A model generated the notes under the pieces. That model was not told where the DNA came from and made no database searches. It saw only the letters and a program-made list of their open reading frames with translations. 39,099 nucleotides of DNA from positions 1 through 39,099 of the IMG/VR virus record IMGVR_UViG_3300035660_000034; one strand, 5' to 3'. Source of the stretch: a virus. Position 1 is the first letter of the stretch. The number at the start of each line of letters is the position of its first letter. The position numbers and the translations under genes are program-made. Positions 1 through 39,099 of the stretch are shown one piece after another.

Positions 1-530
1 GCGTTCGGCTTCAAGAACGCGACCCAATGCGTCTGCGCCTTCTTCCCGCTGCGGTGCCCGTATAGCGGTTTCTCTGGCGTCAGCGCCAGCACTTCTCGCA
101 ACGGTATTTCCGCCTCGCACCACTTGAAGACAAGCGTTCCGCCTGGTCGCAGGACGCGGAAGCACTCCGCGAACCCTTGCCGCAGATCGTCGCGCCATGT
201 GTCGGCAAGCAGCCCGAAATCCCATGCGATTCGCCCGGTCGCCCCAGCTCCCTTGTTGAAGTGCGGCGGATCGAAAACGACGTGCAGAAACGTGTCCGCA
301 GGAAACGGCATGTTGCGGAAGTCCGCCATCATGTCGGGGGCAACCGTCTTCGGCGTCCGACCGATCGTGCCCGGTGTGCCTACGTCAATGATCCGCGTGC
401 CCTGCCGATTGTCCACGTACAGCGCCCTTGCGTCGTGCTGGTCAAACCAGAACATCCGCGATCCGCAGCAGGCGTCCAGCACAGGCGGAAAAGCCGAACC
501 AGACGGTGGAGCATATTCGCTACCGTTCAA
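1..530 (-). CDS. SAM-dependent methyltransferase, C-terminus cut by window edge
   Basis: Class I SAM-dependent methyltransferase-like protein, probably acting on DNA. Near the N-terminus it has a DACCGSRMFWFD segment, resembling a SAM-binding motif. Mid-protein it has VVFDPPHF, a DPPx-type catalytic motif, followed by a FRVLRPGGTLVFKW strand typical of these Rossmann enzymes. The start is TTG at 528-530, because AAGGAGGT lies just upstream and an in-frame TGA excludes a longer start. It overlaps the end of the 89-residue gene by 11 bases. The 3' end runs into a GCCGAAC box at 3-9, the same arrangement as the attC-like site beside the truncated copy at 1610-1680. Substrate is unknown. Family assignment is fairly secure; the specific target is not. 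Confidence 0.85.
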   Translation of the reverse strand, partial: MNGSEYAPPSGSAFPPVLDACCGSRMFWFDQHDARALYVDNRQGTRIIDVGTPGTIGRTPKTVAPDMMADFRNMPFPADTFLHVVFDPPHFNKGAGATGRIAWDFGLLADTWRDDLRQGFAECFRVLRPGGTLVFKWCEAEIPLREVLALTPEKPLYGHRSGKKAQTHWVAFLKPN

Positions 531-550
531 TGCTCACCTCCTTGTTCTGC
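493..550 (+). other. attC-like recombination site (site 1)
   Basis: Imperfect palindrome with attC architecture. The outer box GCCGAAC (493-499) faces GTTCTGC (544-550) with 6 of 7 bases complementary. Spacers are CAGAC and TCCTT. The inner box GGTGGAGCAT (505-514) pairs with ATGCTCACC (530-538) leaving one extra G on the left arm, like the extrahelical base of attC sites. It covers the end of the 89-residue gene and the TTG start and ribosome binding site of the methyltransferase. Identification rests on geometry, not on a search. Confidence 0.6.
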
Positions 551-789
551 GCTTCCTGCCGCTTGAGCATCTCGAAGCCCTCGCGGACGACGGCCTTCAC
601 CAGGTCCATTGCCTCGCCCCGTGTCATGCCGGGCTTGACGGGCAGCTTGGTCATTTGCAGGGCCACCCATTCAACCGGGTCAATGATCTCGGCGGCCATC
701 TCCAGAAACGTGTCTGAGGCGAATGTGACGACATGTCTGCCAACAATCCGCCGCACCTTACGGGCGGCCCGTGGCGTTTTCGTTTTCAT
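520..789 (-). CDS. Hypothetical protein, 89 aa
   Basis: Small basic-then-acidic protein that I do not recognise. The N-terminus is rich in K and R (KTKTPRAARKVRR), followed by an amphipathic, mostly helical body. The ATG at 787-789 is preferred over the longer reading frame because GAGG lies 8 bases upstream and the upstream part overlaps the 67-residue gene. The last residues, QNKEVSIER, are encoded by attC-like site 1. They resemble the ending PNAEVSRER of the Mom-like gene, which also ends in such a site. This suggests the tail comes from the recombination site rather than from the protein family. Confidence 0.7.
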   Translation of the reverse strand: MKTKTPRAARKVRRIVGRHVVTFASDTFLEMAAEIIDPVEWVALQMTKLPVKPGMTRGEAMDLVKAVVREGFEMLKRQEAQNKEVSIER

Positions 790-799
790 TTGTCGGTCC

Positions 800-1003
800 T
801 CAGTTGCCTGGCAGCAGTAGGTAAGTCTGAGTCGGTTTGTCCGGGCGCTTGTCCTGAATCCAGCCGTCCGGGCGCGGCTCGCACTTCTCCTCGATCTTAA
901 TTTCTTTGGCATCCAGCAAGACTTGCTCGCTACAGCAGCGGTATGCAACCTGCAAGCCCTGGGGCTGCATCTGTAAAAAAGCAATCAGTTCGGCTACGGT
1001 CAT
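800..1003 (-). CDS. Hypothetical small phage protein, 67 aa
   Basis: Short protein starting MTVAELIAFLQMQPQGLQVAY. This pattern (a helix, then a 'how many percent are valued' type strand) is common in small uncharacterised phage early proteins. Two adjacent Cys and a C-terminal stretch of polar residues are visible; no known catalytic motif is seen. GGAG sits 4 bases before the ATG. The start lies 20 bases after attC-like site 2, as the first gene of a cassette would. It is 10 bases upstream of the next gene in the same operon. Function unknown. Confidence 0.75.
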   Translation of the reverse strand: MTVAELIAFLQMQPQGLQVAYRCCSEQVLLDAKEIKIEEKCEPRPDGWIQDKRPDKPTQTYLLLPGN

Positions 1004-1023
1004 CTCATTTCTCCAATGTCGGC

Positions 1024-1084
1024 GCCTAACCCGTCGGTCAACCTCGCCCTTCGCTACGCTCGCCGGTTATCTCAACCGTTCGCA
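1024..1084 (+). other. attC-like recombination site (site 2)
   Basis: Outer boxes are GCCTAAC (1024-1030) and GTTCGCA (1078-1084), with 4 of 7 complementary. The left box fits the RYYYAAC consensus, and read on the minus strand it is a canonical GTTRRRY. Spacers are CCGTC and TCAACC, the 5/6 lengths usual for attC. Inner boxes GGTCAACC and GGTTATC pair with one extra C on the left arm. It sits exactly at the 3' end of the 141-residue gene, whose stop codon is inside it. Confidence 0.55.
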
Positions 1085-1497
1085 TACGGATCAAGGCCAA
1101 GGTGCTTCATGTCGCGTTCGTACTGCTGGCGGACCTGCGCGGCCTCTCGGTCCCGGCACGCCGGGCAGTACCCGCTCCGCACGGCGTTCTCAAAGTCGGG
1201 GTGCGTGGTGCCGTATGTCATGTGTTCGGTTCCGTCCGGCGCGAGTCGGCGGATTTCAGACGGCGCCACGCAGCCCCGGCATACCGGCTCGTCGGGGAAC
1301 GCCTCCCATATCTCAACGCTGCTCACCGTGCCGCAGATGTTCCCGCGTTGCGCCAGCAGAGCGCGGGAGGCGTCATTTTCGCTGGCCAGTCCGCGCACGT
1401 ACTTGACCCGCCGACCGTCGCGGTGCGCGAAGACGACGATATGCGTCCGCTCCGGTGTCGGCGGCCAGATCGAAGAAATGCGAACAATCTCTTCCAT
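1072..1497 (-). CDS. Putative zinc-binding protein, 141 aa
   Basis: Unrecognised protein with two CxxC pairs (VCRGC near residue 84 and YCPAC near residue 119) that could bind one zinc ion. The N-terminal half has alternating strands including RTHIVVFAHRDGRRVKYVRG. The ATG at 1495-1497 is chosen because GGAAGGT precedes it; the longer in-frame reading would cross attC-like site 3. The gene is bracketed by attC-like sites 2 and 3, with the stop codon inside site 2, so it has the layout of a mobile gene cassette. No enzymatic motif seen. Function unknown. Confidence 0.75.
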   Translation of the reverse strand: MEEIVRISSIWPPTPERTHIVVFAHRDGRRVKYVRGLASENDASRALLAQRGNICGTVSSVEIWEAFPDEPVCRGCVAPSEIRRLAPDGTEHMTYGTTHPDFENAVRSGYCPACRDREAAQVRQQYERDMKHLGLDPYANG

Positions 1498-1562
1498 GCT
1501 ACCTTCCCTCCGCGCTTCGTGCATGATGATGTCCCTCCCATTGACAATCTGGATCGAAGCCA

Positions 1563-1616
1563 GCCGAACAAGAGCATGGAGCGCGACTCGCTCGCGGCTC
1601 ATGCTCGACGTTCGGC
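1563..1616 (+). other. attC-like recombination site (site 3)
   Basis: The best-formed site. GCCGAAC (1563-1569) and GTTCGGC (1610-1616) are perfect complements. Spacers are AAGA and TCGAC. The inner box GCATGGAGC (1574-1582) pairs with GCTCATGC (1597-1604) with a single extra G on the left arm. The centre is GC-rich and can pair further. The total of 54 nt is close to the shortest known attC sites. It lies between a methyltransferase remnant and the start of the 141-residue gene. Confidence 0.65.
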
Positions 1617-1680
1617 TTCAAGAACGCGATCCAGTGCGTCTGCATGGTCTTGCCGCTCTTGTGCCCGAAAAGCGGAGGTA
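1610..1680 (-). pseudogene. Remnant of a second methyltransferase gene, 3' end only
   Basis: The minus strand reads PPLFGHKSGKTMQTHWIAF followed by LKPN, which aligns with KPLYGHRSGKKAQTHWVAF plus LKPN at the end of the methyltransferase at 1-530. The nucleotide match is visible from 1609 onward against the first ~65 bases of the window. Only about 25 codons remain, with no start codon or catalytic motif, so this is not functional. It runs directly into attC-like site 3. Confidence 0.75.
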
Positions 1681-1767
1681 CTGGAGACAACCTGAAGGGG
1701 GCCAAGGCCGGTCCAGCGTCTAAATCTCCTATCCCAAACCCACGTTCATCCCTATCAAAAGCCTAAT

Positions 1768-1880
1768 GGCCATTCTTTCGCGTTCCTTGCGGTCCAGCAT
1801 GGCCTGTTCGCTGAAACCGCCCCAACATACCGGCGGCCCCGAGATAGCCCCGCAGGAGCGAACGCTGCGCATTGGCGGCC
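1768..1880 (-). pseudogene. Fragment of the internal virion protein gene
   Basis: On the minus strand this 113-nt stretch matches 26964-27075 of the glycine-rich virion gene with about six substitutions and one single-base insertion. The insertion breaks the reading frame. There is no start or stop belonging to it. It is a displaced piece of a late gene inside the early operon, inverted relative to its source. Confidence 0.85.
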
Positions 1881-1897
1881 ATAATCTGAAGTGGGGG

Positions 1898-2749
1898 TCA
1901 TATCAATTCTACCCCGAATTTATCGGTTTTTTGTTTCTCGCATTGTGCATTAGGTTTATCTTCGGCATCATCTGGTTCTTCGCCCCGCAACGACTTCGCC
2001 ATCGGAGAGTTCCCGAATCCCATGGATTCGAGTTGCGCGAGGTCGTCCTGCACCGAGGACTGGGCCGGCACCATGGGCAAAACTGGATGGCGCCGTTCCC
2101 AGGTCCGGACCGCGGCATGCCAGTTCTTCATCGGGTTTTTACCGATGAGCCAGCCTTTGGATTCGTAGAAGTCCCGAAACATCTGCGCGTCAACCGCGTT
2201 TTTTCGTTCCAAGCAGTAGGCTTTTATTTCTTCGAGATTTGGTTTTTTGAAGACAGCACTCCCCTTGGGGGGAGCTTTAATTTTAGGCAGTTTTAAAATT
2301 AAAGCGGGGGGGCAGTTGTTGGCAAGGGGCAAGGGGCAAGGGGCAAAGGGCAAAGGGCAAGGGGCAACGGCGGGACTAACATGTCTGGACTTGTCTGGAC
2401 TTGTCGGAGACATATTTCCTTCATAAACTGAGAGCCTGTTGCGACTTAGGTACTTTTGGACACCGCCGTCAGCATGGCCTTTCCAATCGTGAATGACGAG
2501 GCGGACTTGTTCGGACTTGTCGAGCCACCGACAGTCAGTAAGGGCGGCGATCAGTGTGGTGGCGTCCTTGTCCCAACCGATACCCCGCGCGATGTCGGCG
2601 TCGGTAAACCTGCCGATGTCCCCCCTGGGGGTATATTTAGCTGCCCAATGCCAGAGGGCTTCAAGAATACCCACGGCTTGGTACTTGGGAATTTTGAGTA
2701 CATCCATCAAGGCGAGAGTTTTGGGGTGTTCTGGAGTTCCCCTCTTCAT
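1898..2749 (-). CDS. Replication initiator / replisome organiser-like protein
   Basis: A 283-residue protein likely to bind the phage origin and recruit the host helicase. The N-terminus (MKRGTPEHPKTLALMD, then LEALWHWAAKYTPRGDIGRF and a GWD segment) and the LVIHDWKGHAD motif match winged-helix phage replication proteins. The C-terminus has FRDFYESKGWLIGKNPMKNW, typical of such proteins. The middle is a low-complexity Pro/Leu-rich linker encoded by copy A of the composite repeat (2232-2417), with ACAAGTCC iterons inside the gene as in lambda O. The ATG at 2747-2749 has GGGAGGT upstream. Longer in-frame readings are rejected because they run through the endonuclease gene's 3' end. Confidence 0.8.
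   Translation of the reverse strand: MKRGTPEHPKTLALMDVLKIPKYQAVGILEALWHWAAKYTPRGDIGRFTDADIARGIGWDKDATTLIAALTDCRWLDKSEQVRLVIHDWKGHADGGVQKYLSRNRLSVYEGNMSPTSPDKSRHVSPAVAPCPLPFAPCPLPLANNCPPALILKLPKIKAPPKGSAVFKKPNLEEIKAYCLERKNAVDAQMFRDFYESKGWLIGKNPMKNWHAAVRTWERRHPVLPMVPAQSSVQDDLAQLESMGFGNSPMAKSLRGEEPDDAEDKPNAQCEKQKTDKFGVELI
2232..2417 (-). repeat. Composite origin-like repeat, copy A (inside the initiator gene)
   Basis: Read on the minus strand: two ACAAGTCC iterons, a run of CCCCTTG/CCCTTTG heptamers, a C-tract, then a perfect 12-bp inverted repeat GCTTTAATTTTA / TAAAATTAAAGC with an 8-nt loop, then a short C-tract. Two further ACAAGTCC copies lie at about 2505-2522. Copy B (9707-9909) is nearly identical in the opposite orientation and has one more 21-nt iteron unit. 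Iterons plus an AT-rich palindrome inside an initiator gene resemble a lambdoid origin. Confidence 0.75.
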
Positions 2750-2844
2750 TGCGGCATTACCTCCCTCTCCATTCCAGTTCGGGCCTGGCTCGTTCGGCGG
2801 CGCCTCCGGCGGCGCCTGCGGGCAACCGCGGGCGGGCGAATGTT

Positions 2845-3195
2845 CTACATCTTGCCCCAGCAGACGCCAGAGATGTTCCCGCAAGCGCACCGCAAAATGG
2901 AAAACGACTGTAGGTCCCGGATGCAGGTTGCCCATTCCTGCGTAGCATAACGCAGGACATGCCAACCCATCATTTCAGCCATCCGGTACTTCTCCATATC
3001 GGCCAGGTATCCTTTCCCCCGGACGTGCCGGCCGCGGCCTCGGCGCCCACCCCAAATACCGCCCTCAATCTCGACGGCGAGTTTCTGGTAAGGCCAGGCA
3101 AAATCGAAGCGCCATTTTCGAATCTCATGGAACCTATATTCGGGAATGGGTCTTTGGATCCCGGCGGCCTCGAAAACTTCAGGTGTGAGTTCCAC
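2845..3195 (-). CDS. PD-(D/E)XK-like endonuclease
   Basis: A 116-residue protein resembling small phage Vsr/VRR-type nucleases. Visible signature: HEIRKWRFDFAWP, then LAVEIEGG, then a GRHVRGKGY loop and DMEKYRMAEMMGWHVLRYA. The Asp of RFDF and the Glu pair of EIEGG are the likely metal ligands; the usual Lys after the Glu pair is not obvious. A resolvase or repair nuclease role would fit its place beside recT and the replication gene, but that is inference. Start is GTG at 3193-3195 with AAGGA upstream. The last ~12 codons contain an 18-nt stretch identical to the start of the late gene at 19839, so the C-terminus may be altered. Confidence 0.8.
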   Translation of the reverse strand: MELTPEVFEAAGIQRPIPEYRFHEIRKWRFDFAWPYQKLAVEIEGGIWGGRRGRGRHVRGKGYLADMEKYRMAEMMGWHVLRYATQEWATCIRDLQSFSILRCACGNISGVCWGKM

Positions 3196-4361: not shown

Positions 4362-5219
4362 CTATCCCAGCGGGACCTGTTCGTCCCCGGCGCCCCACTC
4401 CTTATCGAATCTCTTTTTCAACTCGGCGTCCAGAGTCAGATTATCCGGAACGTTCGCCAACCTTTGCGTAAGCGTTTCTCCTGCTGATAGTTTTCGTTCT
4501 TCGGCTTTCCATTCGGCCTCCTGGGCTTCCTCGATACTTATGGCTTGGTCCAGAGCCGGCGAGAGTTGAAGCATCTTGCAGATAATGCGAATCGGTTTGG
4601 ATTTTGCCATGGCTTCCCAACCGCCCACGGCCTGCCAGGGGCTGAACTTGCCTTTTTTCTCGGCCATGTTCATCCGGCGCCGTTCTTCGATTTCCTCGAA
4701 CGTCATCACGTGGAACACCGGAGGGCCACTCTTTAGGTTGCACAGTGCCCAAACATACGTAACCTGCGCGTCTTTTTTGAATTTTGGTTTATGCCTCAAG
4801 AACGGCGTTGTCCCGTATTCAAATTCAAACTCATCTCCCGCCGTCACGATACCAGCCGTGAACGATGCCACCCGGTCGCTCATGTATGCCAGGTGCATCA
4901 GACCGCGATAGCCGACTTGATAGCAGACCTTGCCTTCGCGCGGGATCAGATAGGCATGGCCCAAATTCTTTTCAAGGCTTAGCCCCACGATTGCCGCATT
5001 CACGGCGGCCACGCAGAGACTGGTTCTGTCGAGTTCGAGTAGATATTGATTGTCGTTGCAGACGTTGATGAGGTTCTGAATGAATTTGGCCACGGCATCG
5101 TCTGACCCCAGTATGACCCGAAAGCGAGTCATCCATTCAGGAGTGAAAGTGGCTTTAATGGCGCTTGCGATGACATTCGGGCTGGGCCTCCAGGTTTCGT
5201 CAGGCCACGTCGTCGTCAC
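4362..5219 (-). CDS. recT: RecT-family single-strand annealing protein
   Basis: A 285-residue protein that coats and anneals single-stranded DNA in phage recombination. RecT signatures are clear: LSLEKNLGHAYLIPREGKV, then QVGYRGLMHLAYMSD and FEFEYGTTPFLRHKP, followed by YVWALC and FSPWQAVGGWEAMAKS-type segments. It pairs functionally with the YqaJ exonuclease at 8374-9267, although several genes lie between. The start is GTG at 5217-5219 with AGGAGG 7 bases upstream. The last 11 codons are a copy of a segment from the exonuclease gene (35 identical bases), so the natural C-terminus has been replaced or extended. Confidence 0.93.
   Translation of the reverse strand: MTTTWPDETWRPSPNVIASAIKATFTPEWMTRFRVILGSDDAVAKFIQNLINVCNDNQYLLELDRTSLCVAAVNAAIVGLSLEKNLGHAYLIPREGKVCYQVGYRGLMHLAYMSDRVASFTAGIVTAGDEFEFEYGTTPFLRHKPKFKKDAQVTYVWALCNLKSGPPVFHVMTFEEIEERRRMNMAEKKGKFSPWQAVGGWEAMAKSKPIRIICKMLQLSPALDQAISIEEAQEAEWKAEERKLSAGETLTQRLANVPDNLTLDAELKKRFDKEWGAGDEQVPLG
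4363..4397. repeat. 35-nt direct repeat, copy in recT
   Basis: Identical over 35 bases to 8882-8916 and read in the same frame (GAGDEQVPLG) in both genes. Here it forms the end of recT and supplies its TAG stop. In the exonuclease gene it continues into the conserved YYLQCQHN segment, so the exonuclease copy is probably the source. Confidence 0.9.
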
Positions 5220-5241
5220 GGTCAACCTCCTCTTGTTCGGC
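5220..5241 (+). other. Possible half attC-like site upstream of recT
   Basis: GGTCAACC at 5220-5227 and GTTCGGC at 5235-5241, separated by 7 bases. They resemble the right half of the attC-like sites. No matching left half is found nearby. It lies between the stop of the Cys-rich gene and the recT start and includes the recT ribosome binding site. Weak evidence. Confidence 0.25.
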
Positions 5242-5250
5242 TTGATGCTT

Positions 5251-6003
5251 CTAGCCCGCGCATCCAGTGCGTCCTTCCGCCGACGCCTTGCGTTCAGCCG
5301 CAGCGCGGTTGCGTGCGCAGGTCTTGGAATCCACCGGGTAGTGCAAGTCTCCATCTTTGGGGGACACGTTTACACCGTGTGCCGAGTCCCACAGTATGCG
5401 CACCACCCGCACTTGTAACGGTGGCAGGTATCCGACCCAGTGCGCTCCGCAGTTACAGTACCAAGAGACGTGTTCCAGCGAACTGGCGTCAGCCGGTCGC
5501 GTTGGTTGTTGAGTTTGAGCGTCATTGGCGGCTGACTCCCGCCGCTGAGTTCCGCCGTTGGAACGACGCGCCATGTCCCCGTCAACAACCACCTCCTGCG
5601 TTGGCGTGAGGTTTCCGGCCCAGCCGGAGAAACACGCCAGCACAGGAATCCCCGCTCGCTCTACCGCGTCCATTGCCGCCCGGCGCGGCGGCGAGTCGAA
5701 TCCTTCCGGCAGTTGTGCGTCCATCGGCACGACAATTTTGCAATCCCATATCTTGTACTTCATCGCCAGCGGCGTCATGCAGCCACCGTCCCCTCCGCAT
5801 TCCTCGCAGTCTGGGCCGCACTTGCGGCGCGCGGCGGGCACACATGTCCGCGTGCAGTTGTCGCACGGCATCAGGTCGGGCGCTTCGCATCCGCACGATT
5901 CGTTACACAGTCCAGTTGCGCCCACGCGCTTCAGGTGTTCCCCCACGACGTCTTGGACGGTGGCGTTGGTTGCCGAGTTCGGAGGCTGTTGGTCGCTGGT
6001 CAT
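5251..6003 (-). CDS. Cys-rich hypothetical protein, 250 aa
   Basis: Unrecognised, but its segments look like a conserved phage family. A Cys cluster at about residues 33-75 (GLCNESCGCEA, PCDNCTRTC, KCGPDCEECGGDGGC) probably binds two or more zinc ions. It is followed by an ordered domain with IVVPMDAQLPEGFDSPPRRA and GIPVLACFSGWAGN. The C-terminal third has YCNCGAHW and is polar. The ATG at 6001-6003 follows GGAGAGAG and overlaps the upstream gene's stop (CCATGA). It is directly upstream of recT in the operon. Function unknown. Confidence 0.75.
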   Translation of the reverse strand: MTSDQQPPNSATNATVQDVVGEHLKRVGATGLCNESCGCEAPDLMPCDNCTRTCVPAARRKCGPDCEECGGDGGCMTPLAMKYKIWDCKIVVPMDAQLPEGFDSPPRRAAMDAVERAGIPVLACFSGWAGNLTPTQEVVVDGDMARRSNGGTQRRESAANDAQTQQPTRPADASSLEHVSWYCNCGAHWVGYLPPLQVRVVRILWDSAHGVNVSPKDGDLHYPVDSKTCARNRAAAERKASAEGRTGCAG

Positions 6004-9706: not shown

Positions 9707-9909
9707 ATATATCTCCGACAAGTCCAGACATGTCTCCGACAAGTCCAGACAAGTCCAGACATGTTAGTCCCGCCGTTGCCCTTTGCCCTTTGCCCCTTGC
9801 CCCTTGCCCCTTGCCCCTTGCCAACAACTGCCCCCCCGCTTTAATTTTAAAACTGCCTAAAATTAAAGCTCCCCCCCCCAAGGGGTGTGTTGTTTTCAAA
9901 AAACCAAAT
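9707..9909 (+). repeat. Composite origin-like repeat, copy B (divergent intergenic region)
   Basis: Same order as copy A but on the plus strand: three ACAAGTCC iterons within CTCCGACAAGTCCAGAC units, a tract of CCCTTTG and CCCCTTG heptamers, a C-tract, the same perfect 12-bp palindrome GCTTTAATTTTA / TAAAATTAAAGC at 9839-9870, and a C-rich end followed by TTTTCAAAAAACCAAAT. It lies between the divergent early and late operons and codes for no convincing protein. It could be a second origin, a regulatory array, or both. Confidence 0.75.
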
Positions 9910-19838: not shown

Positions 19839-20825
19839 ATGAACTATGCGGCCGCCCAGGAACATCTCTGGCGTCTCTTGGGGAAGCACGATTCCAATGG
19901 ACGCCGGGATTATATGGTGGAGCAGGTGCGCGAGGCGGTCAATGCCGCCGTGGACCGGCTAAAAAATGAAGGCCGGGAACTGCTGTACGACATTCGACAG
20001 GGCACAGTGTCGTTGGTTTCGGGTACCAGCACCTACGACCTCGATGATTTTTGCCTGATGCCGATTACGTTCTACACCGTGAGCGGCAATTCTCCGGGGG
20101 AATTGGAACCTATCATCGGAAGCGAAGTTGACGCTTTGGGATTGCGCAGCCCGTCGCTCTATCAGATAACGGGGTCCGTCTATCATTTTACCTGGAAGGA
20201 ATTCAGGCAAACAGCCTCAAAATCAACCACGTCCAACATCAGCGGGACGGCGATAACGCGAACCAGCGGAGACAGTTTCGCCGCGACCGATGTTGGCAGG
20301 CGCGTCCGGATAAACGGGGAGCGTCCGGATTATACGGTGGCTGCATACGTCAGCACCGATGCCGTAACGCTCTCACGGTCATACGTGGCGCGACGCACGG
20401 GTGAGGCGGTCAGTTCCGATACAACGACGGCAACAGCCGCAACAGTGGAACTAAGCCCGCCACCCGTGCGTCAACTTGAAATTGTGCCGGCCTGTCAAAC
20501 CAGCCTGACGCTCTACTACAAATACATCCGTCAATGGCCGTACTTGCTGGGAGACAGCGAGGTGCTGCCGGTGGAACAGCGCTGGGACGAGGCTGTCATT
20601 GATTTGGCGTATGCGGAAATCATGAAGTGGACGGAGAACCATGAGGCCGCCGACCGCGCCGAAGCGCGCGCGCAACGCTGGCTGACGAAGATGAAGGAGA
20701 TAGAGCAGACCGCCGGACGGCCGCCGCGGCTCATGTATCGCAGTCCTATCCGGGACGGGCCATACCCGAAGGAATCCCAGTCTATGGTTCGAGACACCTA
20801 CAGGAGGGGGAGGCCGTGGAGATAA
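19839..20825 (+). CDS. Putative tail adaptor / tubular protein, 328 aa
   Basis: Likely head-tail adaptor of podovirus type. The N-terminal helices (AAAQEHLWRLLGKHD, VREAVNAAVDRLKNEGRELL) and a strand TYDLDDFCLMPITFYTVSG are of the gp11/tubular-A style. An inserted beta domain (~120-200) has Ser/Thr-rich repeats. The C-terminal helices (WDEAVIDLAYAEIMKW) resemble adaptor ends. Position before the nozzle-like genes supports it. The first codons share 18 identical bases with 2862-2879. Function inferred. Confidence 0.65.
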   Translation: MNYAAAQEHLWRLLGKHDSNGRRDYMVEQVREAVNAAVDRLKNEGRELLYDIRQGTVSLVSGTSTYDLDDFCLMPITFYTVSGNSPGELEPIIGSEVDALGLRSPSLYQITGSVYHFTWKEFRQTASKSTTSNISGTAITRTSGDSFAATDVGRRVRINGERPDYTVAAYVSTDAVTLSRSYVARRTGEAVSSDTTTATAATVELSPPPVRQLEIVPACQTSLTLYYKYIRQWPYLLGDSEVLPVEQRWDEAVIDLAYAEIMKWTENHEAADRAEARAQRWLTKMKEIEQTAGRPPRLMYRSPIRDGPYPKESQSMVRDTYRRGRPWR

Positions 20826-34443: not shown

Positions 34444-34468
34444 TCATGGTCGAACCTCCCCTTGGGCG
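34444..34468 (+). other. Possible half attC-like site at the early/late junction
   Basis: On the plus strand GGTCGAACC, then TCCC, then CTTGGGC. The pattern is like the right half of site 4 (GGCTCACC, TCCGC, GTTGGGC), and it encodes the end of the PPCQ gene. No left half is seen between it and the late operon. Weak evidence. Confidence 0.25.
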
Positions 34469-35133
34469 GGCCGCGCTTGACGCGCCAAACGTAGAAGAAC
34501 GTCGCGGAAGGCAACGGGCGTGGCATTGCGTATTCTGGTTTTATCTTTGCCCCCGACCATTGCCAGTATGCCAATTCGCCTGGCCCTTTCGTATCCGTGC
34601 TTTGCCAGTGCCTTCGGGTCAATGCGCTGTTCCCCAATGGTCCAATCCAGCTCTAACGGTTTTTGCCCTCCGATGTATAGAAGCCATGTGCCTTTTCGTG
34701 CAATGTGGCCATAGTTTCCTTGCTCGACGTAGCAGGTGTAAGCGTGGCTTACACTGCTTATTTTTATCCACCCGTTGCCACGCCCTGGCTTTTGTATTCC
34801 GAAGTGTCCCCATGCGTGCGAGTCGGCAGGGTGTTCCAGTACTCCGCCAAAATCACGAATTGATTTCAGCGCAGACTCAAAGCATCCGCCGTCGTCGCCC
34901 ATCTTGAACCGGTGCGGCTTCCTGGTGCTACCATGCCAAAACCTGCCCCACCGCTGGCACGGCGGATGCGCCACGACCGGATGCGGCCCACGGTACAACC
35001 GTGCGTCCCGCTTTATATCCCAAGGATCAACACCAGGCAATCCGAAATAGCAACCGTCCGTCTCCACGAATAGGGCTGCAACAGGCGCGAAAATCGTCGA
35101 ACAATTCGGTCGAGCCAATTCGCTATCGCTCAC
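34444..35133 (-). CDS. PPCQ-motif DNA cytosine-methyltransferase-like protein, 229 aa
   Basis: Contains AHPPCQRWGR (residues ~54-63), like catalytic motif IV of cytosine-C5 DNA methyltransferases (PPCQ, Cys nucleophile), and FGGVLEHPADSHAW, where motif VI (ENV) would be. The FxGxG SAM-binding motif at the N-terminus is not seen, so this may be a diverged or partial enzyme, or another family with a similar loop. The GTG start at 35131-35133 follows GGAGGT, all inside attC-like site 4, and overlaps the Mom-like gene by 11 bases. Last gene of the operon before the convergent late operon. Confidence 0.5.
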   Translation of the reverse strand: MSDSELARPNCSTIFAPVAALFVETDGCYFGLPGVDPWDIKRDARLYRGPHPVVAHPPCQRWGRFWHGSTRKPHRFKMGDDGGCFESALKSIRDFGGVLEHPADSHAWGHFGIQKPGRGNGWIKISSVSHAYTCYVEQGNYGHIARKGTWLLYIGGQKPLELDWTIGEQRIDPKALAKHGYERARRIGILAMVGGKDKTRIRNATPVAFRDVLLRLARQARPAQGEVRP

Positions 35134-35153
35134 GGCTCACCTCCGCGTTGGGC
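35096..35153 (+). other. attC-like recombination site (site 4)
   Basis: GTCGAAC (35096-35102) and GTTGGGC (35147-35153), the latter a canonical GTTRRRY. Spacers are AATTC and TCCGC. The inner box GGTCGAGCC pairs with GGCTCACC leaving one extra C on the left arm, as in known attC sites. It contains the stop of the Mom-like gene and the ribosome binding site and GTG start of the PPCQ gene. Confidence 0.65.
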
Positions 35154-35656
35154 CTACGAATCGCCAGCGCGAAACGGTGCTTGCTCACCCTTGGCCTTCG
35201 CTCGACAACGGCGTCCGCTGGCATGTTGCCCCGCCGTCCGTACTTCTGCCCGGTCCTCGCGTCGTAGTAGTCGCAACGTGGGGACTTGCGCTCATCATCC
35301 GTGCGACCATCCTCGCGCCAGTTGGCGGCCCGGTAAATCGTTCCCTTGTGTCCGGCGCTCGGATCGGCGTAGCTGACCAGGTTGCAGACATCCGGGCGGT
35401 GTTGCCTGATCCATTTCACGCTCTGCGCGATCAACCACGTTTCGGCGTTCTGCGGCACCTCGTCCAGCAGGTACAGCCGCGCAAGCTCCCATGTCTTTCC
35501 GCCGTAGCGGACATCGGACTCGCGGGGCGGGGCGGAGTAGATCACGCACCCTATCGGGCGCGTGTCTCGCAGCATCGCCAGCGCCAGCAGGACAATGGCC
35601 GGCCGCTTGTGCAGGTAGTGCGCCCTCACGAACCCGTCAACGGCGGTCACGCTCAC
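35123..35656 (-). CDS. Mom-like DNA-modification acyltransferase
   Basis: A 177-residue GNAT-fold protein resembling phage Mu Mom, which adds an acetamido-type group to adenine in DNA and protects it from restriction enzymes. Matching segments: TWELARLYLLDEVPQNAETW, LIAQSVKWIRQHRPDV, then LVSYADPSAGHKGTIYRAAN. The GTG at 35654-35656 has no good ribosome binding site, and the frame is open upstream without a usual start, so translation may depend on coupling or an activator, as Mu mom needs Com. It ends PNAEVSRER in attC-like site 4. Target base unproven. Confidence 0.8.
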   Translation of the reverse strand: MSVTAVDGFVRAHYLHKRPAIVLLALAMLRDTRPIGCVIYSAPPRESDVRYGGKTWELARLYLLDEVPQNAETWLIAQSVKWIRQHRPDVCNLVSYADPSAGHKGTIYRAANWREDGRTDDERKSPRCDYYDARTGQKYGRRGNMPADAVVERRPRVSKHRFALAIRRPNAEVSRER

Positions 35657-37450: not shown

Positions 37451-38043
37451 CATCGTCCCTCGCCGTACCTCACCTTGAACCACTCCGGGTTGGCCAAGCA
37501 CGCGCTCAGACCGCCCTTCAGTCCGGAGCTTGCCTTCCGCACCACTACTCCCTCGACATCCGGGTTACTCAGGCCGTGGATGTAGAGGTCCACCATGCCG
37601 GGATTCTGAATGGTCTCCGCCCATTCTATCCCGGAGGGTTTCAACGGCAGCCATGCGTGTTGCATGGTGTGCCCCAGCAACACCGAACGTTCCCCGAAGG
37701 GCGTCCGGCCCAGCCATTGCCCCTCGTACATCAGGATATCGAAGGCTATCAGCCGATGCTCACCGCCCTTCTTGCGAGGGCCAACCCATTCGCAGTCAAT
37801 GGCCAGCGGCAGGTCCGGCCAGCTCATCATCCGCCAGGCCTCCATCACTTCGGCAGGCATGGCCTTTGCCGCGGCGCCGCTGCGTTTAGCCTGCCAGACC
37901 CAACCGCCATCGCAGAGCCATCCGGTCCGGCGGTAGCCATCCCATTTCAGTTGCGCCAGCCACGTGCGCGCCGGCGCCCTGTCCAGCTCACGCAGAAAAT
38001 CCAGCGAGACTGGGCATGGATCGTCTGGCCAGTGGTAGATCAT
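37450..38043 (-). CDS. Minimal ATP-dependent DNA ligase (nucleotidyltransferase domain)
   Basis: A 197-residue protein with the ligase motifs: KWDGYR (33-38, the lysine that takes AMP), DCEW (83-86, motif III), EGVVVRK (164-170, motif IV) and WFKVRY (188-193, motif V). The usual C-terminal OB-fold domain with motif VI is absent, because the protein ends soon after motif V. It may need a partner, act on nicks poorly, or be a remnant. The ATG overlaps the WD40 stop (ATGA). Confidence 0.85.
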   Translation of the reverse strand: MIYHWPDDPCPVSLDFLRELDRAPARTWLAQLKWDGYRRTGWLCDGGWVWQAKRSGAAAKAMPAEVMEAWRMMSWPDLPLAIDCEWVGPRKKGGEHRLIAFDILMYEGQWLGRTPFGERSVLLGHTMQHAWLPLKPSGIEWAETIQNPGMVDLYIHGLSNPDVEGVVVRKASSGLKGGLSACLANPEWFKVRYGEGR

Positions 38044-38558
38044 TTGCGCACTTCCTTCCCGGTGCTCACGTCCCAGAGGCGGATGGTCCTGTCTCCACTT
38101 CCAGAAGCCAGCGTCCGGCCGTCAGGAGAGAAACTGACGGACCAGACCCAACCGTCATGCCCTTCGAATTTGCGCACTTCCTTCCCGGTGCTCACGTCCC
38201 AGAGGCGGATGGTCCTGTCATCACTTCCTGAAGCCAGCGTCCGGCCGTCAGGCGAGAAACTGACGGACGAGACCCAGGAGCTGTGCCCTTCGAATTTGCG
38301 CACTTCCTTCCCGGTGCTCACGTCCCAGAGGCGGATGGTCCTGTCTCCACTTCCAGAAGCCAGCGTCCGGCCGTCAGGAGAGAAACTGACGGACTGGACC
38401 CAACCGTCATGCCCTTCGAGTTTGCGCACTTCCTTCCCGGTGCTCACGTCCCAGAGGCGGATGGTCCCGTCATCACTTCCTGAAGCCAGCGTCCGGCCGT
38501 CGGGAGAGAAACTGACGGACGAGACCCTAGCATCTGCCGTCATCTGCTCTCGTGTCAT
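38040..38558 (-). CDS. WD40-repeat protein with four near-identical blades
   Basis: A 172-residue protein that is almost entirely WD40 repeats of 42 residues: VSFSPDGRTLASGS, TIRLWDVSTGKEVRK and EGH..WV, four times, the last ending right after GKEVRK. The differences lie at a few positions only: the residue before SVSF (S, Q, S, W), DD or GD after GS, G or R next, and DG or SS before WV. Such a propeller usually has seven blades, so four would need to assemble into oligomers. Start ATG 38556-38558 with AAGGAG upstream. Host-derived scaffold or decoy is a guess. Very unusual for a phage. Confidence 0.88.
   Translation of the reverse strand: MTREQMTADARVSSVSFSPDGRTLASGSDDGTIRLWDVSTGKEVRKLEGHDGWVQSVSFSPDGRTLASGSGDRTIRLWDVSTGKEVRKFEGHSSWVSSVSFSPDGRTLASGSDDRTIRLWDVSTGKEVRKFEGHDGWVWSVSFSPDGRTLASGSGDRTIRLWDVSTGKEVRK
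38043..38530. repeat. Tandem 126-nt repeats of the WD40 gene
   Basis: Nearly identical units begin at 38043, 38169, 38295 and 38421, each 126 nt (42 codons). Units 1 and 3 share silent and coding differences from units 2 and 4 (TCA GGA AGT GAT versus TCT GGA AGT GGA), so the array was built by duplicating a two-unit block. Copy number is probably unstable. Confidence 0.9.
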
Positions 38559-38677
38559 GGTTTTCTCCTTGTCGCCCGCAACTCTGTCTGGACATGGAGT
38601 GGCTGGAAGCCTCCGGGCGGCCGGAGTCTCTCCAAGTCTTCGACCTCTTGGCCTTCGACGGCCACCTCCCACCATCG

Positions 38678-38914: not shown

Positions 38915-38937
38915 CGTTTGCCTCCTTTTTCATCTGG

Positions 38938-39012
38938 GCCGTCAGGAGAGAAACTGACGGACTGGACCCAATCGCTATGCCCTTCGAATTTGCGCACTTC
39001 CTTCCCGGTGCT
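38938..39012 (-). pseudogene. Stray WD40 repeat fragment
   Basis: 75 nt that read STGKEVRKFEGHSDWVQSVS plus FSPDG on the minus strand, in register with the repeats of the WD40 gene 400 bases away. There is no start codon; the frame begins right after a TAA of the membrane gene. Its SDW is not found in the intact array, so it is not a simple copy of one unit. Confidence 0.85.
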
Positions 39013-39018
39013 AATCCG

Positions 39019-39099
39019 TTAGAAGCGCAAAGAATTCCAAAGGCGCACCAACGCCACCAACGGCGGAATGGCGACAATCGCCACCGCCACGAACGGCAA
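39019..39099 (-). CDS. C-terminal end of a small membrane protein (cut by the right edge)
   Basis: On the minus strand, starting at the window edge: LPFVAVAIVAIPPLVALVRL followed by WNSLRF and TAA. A continuous hydrophobic segment ending in a short positively charged tail points to a small membrane protein. Its start is outside the window. Confidence 0.5.
   Translation of the reverse strand: MPFVAVAIVAIPPLVALVRLWNSLRF

Follow-up and report, generated by a model that had tools for sequence, protein, structure and literature searches.

Probable integron attC sites in a phage operon, with cassette genes in the opposite sense to the sites

Clusters of attC sites without an integrase (CALINs) have been described in 17 phages, where they carry methyltransferase cargo (Qi et al. 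2023, PMC9892861), so the presence of attC in a phage has a precedent. IntI1 recombined five of the six virulent-phage attC sites tested in that study, which proposes off-target homologous and illegitimate recombination as the source of the phage CALINs. The CALINs of TJE1 (Tetrasphaera), P12002L (Polaribacter), PH101 (Pseudoalteromonas) and MW202573 (Caudoviricetes) described there resemble the locus studied here, with attC, no intI and methyltransferase cargo. The consulted parts of that paper mention one phage whose attC run in divergent directions; a general inversion, a phage IntI clade or an attI common to phages is not reported there. The new part here is that the genes run in the opposite sense to attC. 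A search of the open-access literature, a scope that leaves aside preprints and most subscription journals, gave no matching description.

The window is the whole stretch analyzed, a 39,099-base linear virus record (IMGVR_UViG_3300035660_000034). Its plus strand carries terminase, portal, capsid and tail genes, and this structural module is flanked on both sides by minus-strand genes, including those for RecE-like and RecT-like proteins and a replication initiation protein. The minus-strand direction of the genes on both arms is consistent with the original prediction that the sites belong to an early operon. Searches of viral contigs with the window terminase and with a Cys-containing gene (1072-1497) returned zero relatives, and the window portal had no match among 15 related records, which leaves the whole phage without a close relative for comparison. 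Positions 2250-2325 (plus) and 9819-9898 (minus) hold inverted copies of a sequence of about 75 nt, each containing the hairpin GCTTTAATTTTA-8-TAAAATTAAAGC, and the 7.5 kb block between them carries the RecE-like and RecT-like genes. A WD40 beta-propeller gene at 38040-38675 (minus), built of near-identical tandem repeats, is odd cargo for a phage; a partial WD40 repeat lies at 38932-39020, close to the right end of the window.

Four plus-strand sites, S1 (493-550), S2 (1024-1084), S3 (1563-1616) and S4 (35096-35153), lie where they had been predicted and are very probably attC. Each has R''/R' boxes (RYYNAAC...GTTNRRY), 8/7 L boxes with one unpaired base, and spacers of about 5-6 nt. The layouts are GCCGAAC-CAGAC-GGTgGAGC-19 nt-GCTCACC-TCCTT-GTTCTGC for S1, GCCTAAC-CCGTC-GGTcAACC-21-GGTTATC-TCAACC-GTTCGCA for S2, with spacings close to those of attC_aadA1, and GTCGAAC-AATTC-GGTcGAGC-19-GCTCACC-TCCGC-GTTGGGC for S4. 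The extra base is on the plus-strand left arm in all four sites, while R pairing is imperfect in S2 and S4. The predicted IntI cuts fall between 544 and 545 (S1), 1078 and 1079 (S2), 1610 and 1611 (S3), and 35147 and 35148 (S4). A further R box at 3-9 had been proposed; this R' box, GTTCGGC on the plus strand (S0), belongs to another attC or an attI cut by the left edge of the window. The box is real: from there, 3-68 and 1610-1675 match at 82%, and each is the 3' end of a methyltransferase gene. Its predicted cut is between 3 and 4, with the window edge at 1 limiting the view.

An attC covariance model, the check called for by the original prediction, was built from only 12 bacterial attC, taken from class 1 plasmid cassettes and from arrays on contigs binned as Rokubacteria. 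S1-S4 are its top four full-length matches in the window, all on the plus strand, with 34.5 bits for S3 (E 2e-6), 30.1 for S4 (2.4e-5), 25.1 for S1 (4e-4) and 20.4 for S2 (5.6e-3), these E-values being rough; the next full-length match has 11.5 bits. Rfam gave no match. A hairpin match at 20700-20734 was dismissed, as it is without R boxes and inside a structural gene. As free ssDNA, the bottom strands of S3 (z -5.5) and S1 (z -3.1) fold better than shuffles, but those of S2 and S4 fold no better.

Cassette A consists of a DNA methyltransferase gene (3-530, minus; phrog_954, E 2e-59) with relatives in viral contigs of up to 85% amino acid identity. Its TTG start at 530, inside S1, is inferred; the gene caller chose ATG 455. 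Cassette B holds a gene with no family match (520-789, minus), called by the coding model and with its stop codon inside S1, and a small gene (800-1003, minus) with a weak match to phrog_5861 (E 9e-4) and a coding score of about zero. Cassette C is the Cys-containing gene of 141 residues (1072-1497, minus; an ORF call with no family match), described by the original prediction as zinc-type and bracketed by two sites; it does lie between S2 and S3. The remnant 3' end of a second methyltransferase copy (1610-1722, minus) meets S3 at the R' box, and its 1610-1675 part matches not only 3-68 but also 588-653 of viral contig L236 (85%). At S4, the gene at 34444-35133 (minus; phrog_12600, E 2e-62) has a GTG start within the site, behind an S4-encoded Shine-Dalgarno sequence; the methyltransferase query also brought in contig L009, where a homologue of this gene is 40% identical. 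The adjoining Mom-like DNA modification gene (35123-35656, minus; PF25680 Mom, E 1.3e-24; phrog_1384, E 5e-28) has its stop inside S4. The cargo is mainly DNA modification genes, methyltransferases and Mom.

With three sites within 1.2 kb and no intI in the window by tblastn, the array corresponds to a CALIN, on a contig incomplete at the left. It differs from a canonical cassette, where a single gene and the attC after it share one sense, all window cassette genes being opposite, and from a complete integron, where intI and attI lie beside the array; both of these are present in related phages. The window array is very probably an inverted CALIN, a type common among phages.

The original prediction treated the opposed sense of genes and sites as a puzzle for attC. 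The opposition is seen, but it does not argue against attC, since it is usual in the phage contigs examined. Loci around the window methyltransferase and around intI were scanned with the covariance model. At the methyltransferase loci every viral attC is on the strand opposite to the methyltransferase gene, and at the intI loci nearly all attC are on the strand opposite to intI, mostly on its 5' side. Genes were called with a hexamer-trained caller plus homology anchors, because longest-ORF calls picked the incorrect strand at certain loci, such as L004. By these calls, 137 cassette genes in phage arrays are opposite to attC and 10 are in the same sense, a count that takes in the window, MW202573 and PH101. 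Of the 35 phage contigs with a majority, it is opposite in 34 and the same in one (TJE1), whereas bacterial controls have 6 opposite and 32 same (subsets 1:15 without L086, 2:8 and 3:9); the control set is small and the phage contigs are not independent lineages, so that more weight is placed on the ratio than on p-values. Verrucomicrobiota integrons have few detectable attC and are a weak control.

Opposite sense is the rule in the phage arrays sampled. MW202573, re-examined here, has the same inversion as the window, which the consulted parts of PMC9892861 do not state, and PH101 has two genes opposite and one the same. Genes opposite to attC that are anchored by homology (Pfam/PHROG) include DNA methyltransferases (L004, L019, L113, L143, L082 and L233), an acetyltransferase (L143) and an RNA ligase (L019). 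Portal, terminase, capsid or tail genes are present on several of the main contigs. The same-sense exceptions in phages are the TJE1 array and one weak site in Virus Rctr41k. L086, binned as Betaproteobacteria and with an inverted array, was rejected as a bacterial counterexample because its tail tape-measure gene marks it as phage. L233 is likewise a phage contig in a bacterial genome bin (Betaproteobacteria), with at least six inverted attC sites.

Positions 3-546 of the window, from the S0 cut to the S1 cut, align with 125-653 of L236 at 70% identity, and the alignment stops at the S0 cut. L236 has an attC near-identical to S1, though scoring only 15.7 bits, preceded by DNA unrelated to the window; the window edge blocks the comparison on the other side of the cassette. 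The shared segment is thus a gene cassette in the wider sense, one between two R' cuts in differing contexts. Together with the model scores, its ending at both predicted cut points supports the original prediction that integron attC bound cassette-like genes; the gene itself is only 70% identical there. L101 and L103 share a 91% identical methyltransferase that ends at the R' cut and are otherwise unrelated. Such boundaries suggest that cassettes have moved between phages.

The S1 attC is almost unchanged at window 493-550, L236 122-178 and L089 3254-3309, with genes behind it that are 70% identical or unrelated. In L089, a contig binned as Verrucomicrobia, it is 98% identical over 56 nt and lies before a different gene, whose coding frame also begins inside the S1-like attC. 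An attC that is more conserved than its gene, or shared without it, is unexplained by simple cassette transfer; selection may act more strongly on the S1 site, or on its translation start, than on the cargo. Adjoining the S1-like attC in L089, at 1449-3090, is a DNA methyltransferase with a neighbour that is possibly its restriction enzyme; an attC-like site lies downstream of this pair, which has normal sense. In L236, the sequence CAAGCAATTATCC after the methyltransferase cassette (648-670) resembles the predicted attI of L139/L140 (CAAGAATTATCC), on a contig without intI.

Integron integrases are encoded by two of the loci retrieved with the methyltransferase query, and 47 viral loci with relatives came out of a profile search; intI is present on more than 20 of the inverted-array phage contigs. 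The TIGR02249 cut-off of 265 bits is reached by four of the five phage IntIs tested, the fifth falling short by 4 bits. When 67 IntIs are placed in a tree, a single clade with 100/100 support unites 21 from phages and is separate from the 32 bacterial sequences sampled; other phage IntIs are placed elsewhere. The phages have in common an attI-like sequence, approximately RYYNAA/C A n TGATTA, 34-75 nt before the intI start codon. Conservation is 0.12 bits per position to the left of the predicted cut (essentially random) and 0.61 over 20 positions to the right, a contrast partly built in since the motif was defined after viewing the sequences. Alignments of L103 with L104 and L106 are independent of the motif and start at the predicted attI cut; the L104-L106 alignment starts about ten bases before it. 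The order attC-attI-intI in the phages is the usual one, and only the cassette genes are flipped. In L234 (KX853513, Virus Rctr41k), the genome of a phage from a methane-oxidising culture, the protein annotated xerD (4680-5678) is integron-integrase-like; with a single weak same-sense site, the genome was rejected as an example of an inverted array.

Overall, these sites are probably integron attC, and the genes between them phage gene cassettes that are inverted relative to attC and exchanged by an integron integrase. Such an enzyme would recognize the bottom strand of attC in its folded form and cleave within the R' box (bottom strand AA/C), and each segment between two R' boxes would be excised and inserted. 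Exchange of modification cassettes would let phages swap protection against host restriction. The original prediction was right that the window has no integron integrase, but a host source is one of three options rather than a necessity, because related phages encode intI and the window edge cuts the array: the enzyme could come from the host, from a co-infecting integron, or from a gene beyond the left edge. The attI-like motif was searched for in the window and is absent near the array.

The alternative that survives best, though it appears unlikely, is a relic CALIN, in which a single event of illegitimate or homologous recombination brought in attC cassettes from a bacterial integron that are now static, the inversion being accidental. 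Arrays with window-type sites may indeed be static, because none of 12 records of phages with such short sites has intI, as the window has none; the source proposed for phage CALINs in PMC9892861 fits this history as well, as does the near-identical attC in the contig binned as Verrucomicrobia. However, an accident would not yield the same inversion in 34 of the 35 contigs with a majority. L236 and the window share exactly one cassette, and the intI-bearing phages differ up to the attI cut, both of which speak against a static relic.

Since the gene is inverted, attC is at its 5' end. The minus strand of S1 reads AAGGAGGTGAGCATTG, a Shine-Dalgarno sequence and start codon; this reverse strand holds AAGGAGGTGA and the TTG start, so the first residues of the cassette A methyltransferase, NGSEYAPPSGSA, would be encoded by the site. 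The minus strand of S4 likewise reads GGAGGTGAGCCGTG, also with a Shine-Dalgarno sequence and start codon. The reading frames pass the R'' box into the methyltransferase from S1 and into the 34444-35133 gene from S4, and the genes before them stop, at 520 and 35123, within the same sites as these starts. The last methyltransferase codons (KPN) form the S0 R' box. Counted across every site, 17 of 101 have an in-site start with a Shine-Dalgarno sequence, compared with 4 of 101 on the opposite strand, and as this enrichment is only moderate the claim of in-site starts is limited to the named examples. Translation from the starts in S1 and S4 is suggested by these frames. The cassette would then carry its own ribosome-binding site and start codon and be read in the phage minus-strand operon without its own promoter.

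The start signals in S1 and S4 could also mean that conservation partly serves translation, and hairpins at gene junctions (terminators, REP-like repeats or translation-start structures) might resemble attC by convergence. This appears very unlikely, since the sites match attC in their model score, their R-box consensus, their 8/7 L boxes and the unchanging orientation of the extra base, and arrays of the same design adjoin intI in viral contigs. Chance inverted repeats in GC-rich DNA can be set aside almost entirely: a loose scan yields many weak look-alikes, but in about 800 kb of shuffled sequence a separate geometric scorer found nothing as high as the 11.5 that S1, S3 and S4 each reach or exceed (S2 was left out because its R boxes pair poorly), and the four sites are the best full-length model matches, all on one strand.

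Beyond exchange by an integrase at this locus, a wider reading is favoured on balance, if less firmly. Phages may own a distinct kind of integron, with its own IntI clade, attI and flipped cassettes that have attC as 5' leader, and with a cassette pool apart from that of bacterial integrons, from which DNA modification genes are shuffled among unrelated phages; phages lacking intI, like that of the window, may share this pool in trans. An attC that encodes a gene start is not simply usable by a bacterial integron, and the phage and bacterial cassette pools may therefore be partly separate. Phage accessory regions are very mosaic and the responsible enzymes often unknown, so site-specific swapping offers a testable mechanism, one that would swap single anti-restriction genes at defined cut points. 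It bears on the origin of integron cassettes and their attC, and the same chemistry operates in antibiotic-resistance integrons.

Like the phages, class 1 and chromosomal bacterial integrons have the attC design, a TIGR02249-type integrase, attI directly upstream of intI, and attC pointing away from intI. Unlike them, the phages have cassette genes toward intI and attC 5' rather than 3' of the gene. A recombination site that supplies a start codon and ribosome-binding site is known from attI1 of integrons, which encodes the translation start of ORF-11. There the start lies in attI and serves the first cassette, whereas in the phages it would lie in the reversed attC, part of the cassette itself. 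TJE1, with normal sense, is unlike the window. The Treponema integrons (PMC3607928) resemble the phages in having intI and cassette genes in one direction, but their intI is transcribed toward attI, whereas the phages have the usual intI/attI layout with the cassette genes flipped relative to attC.
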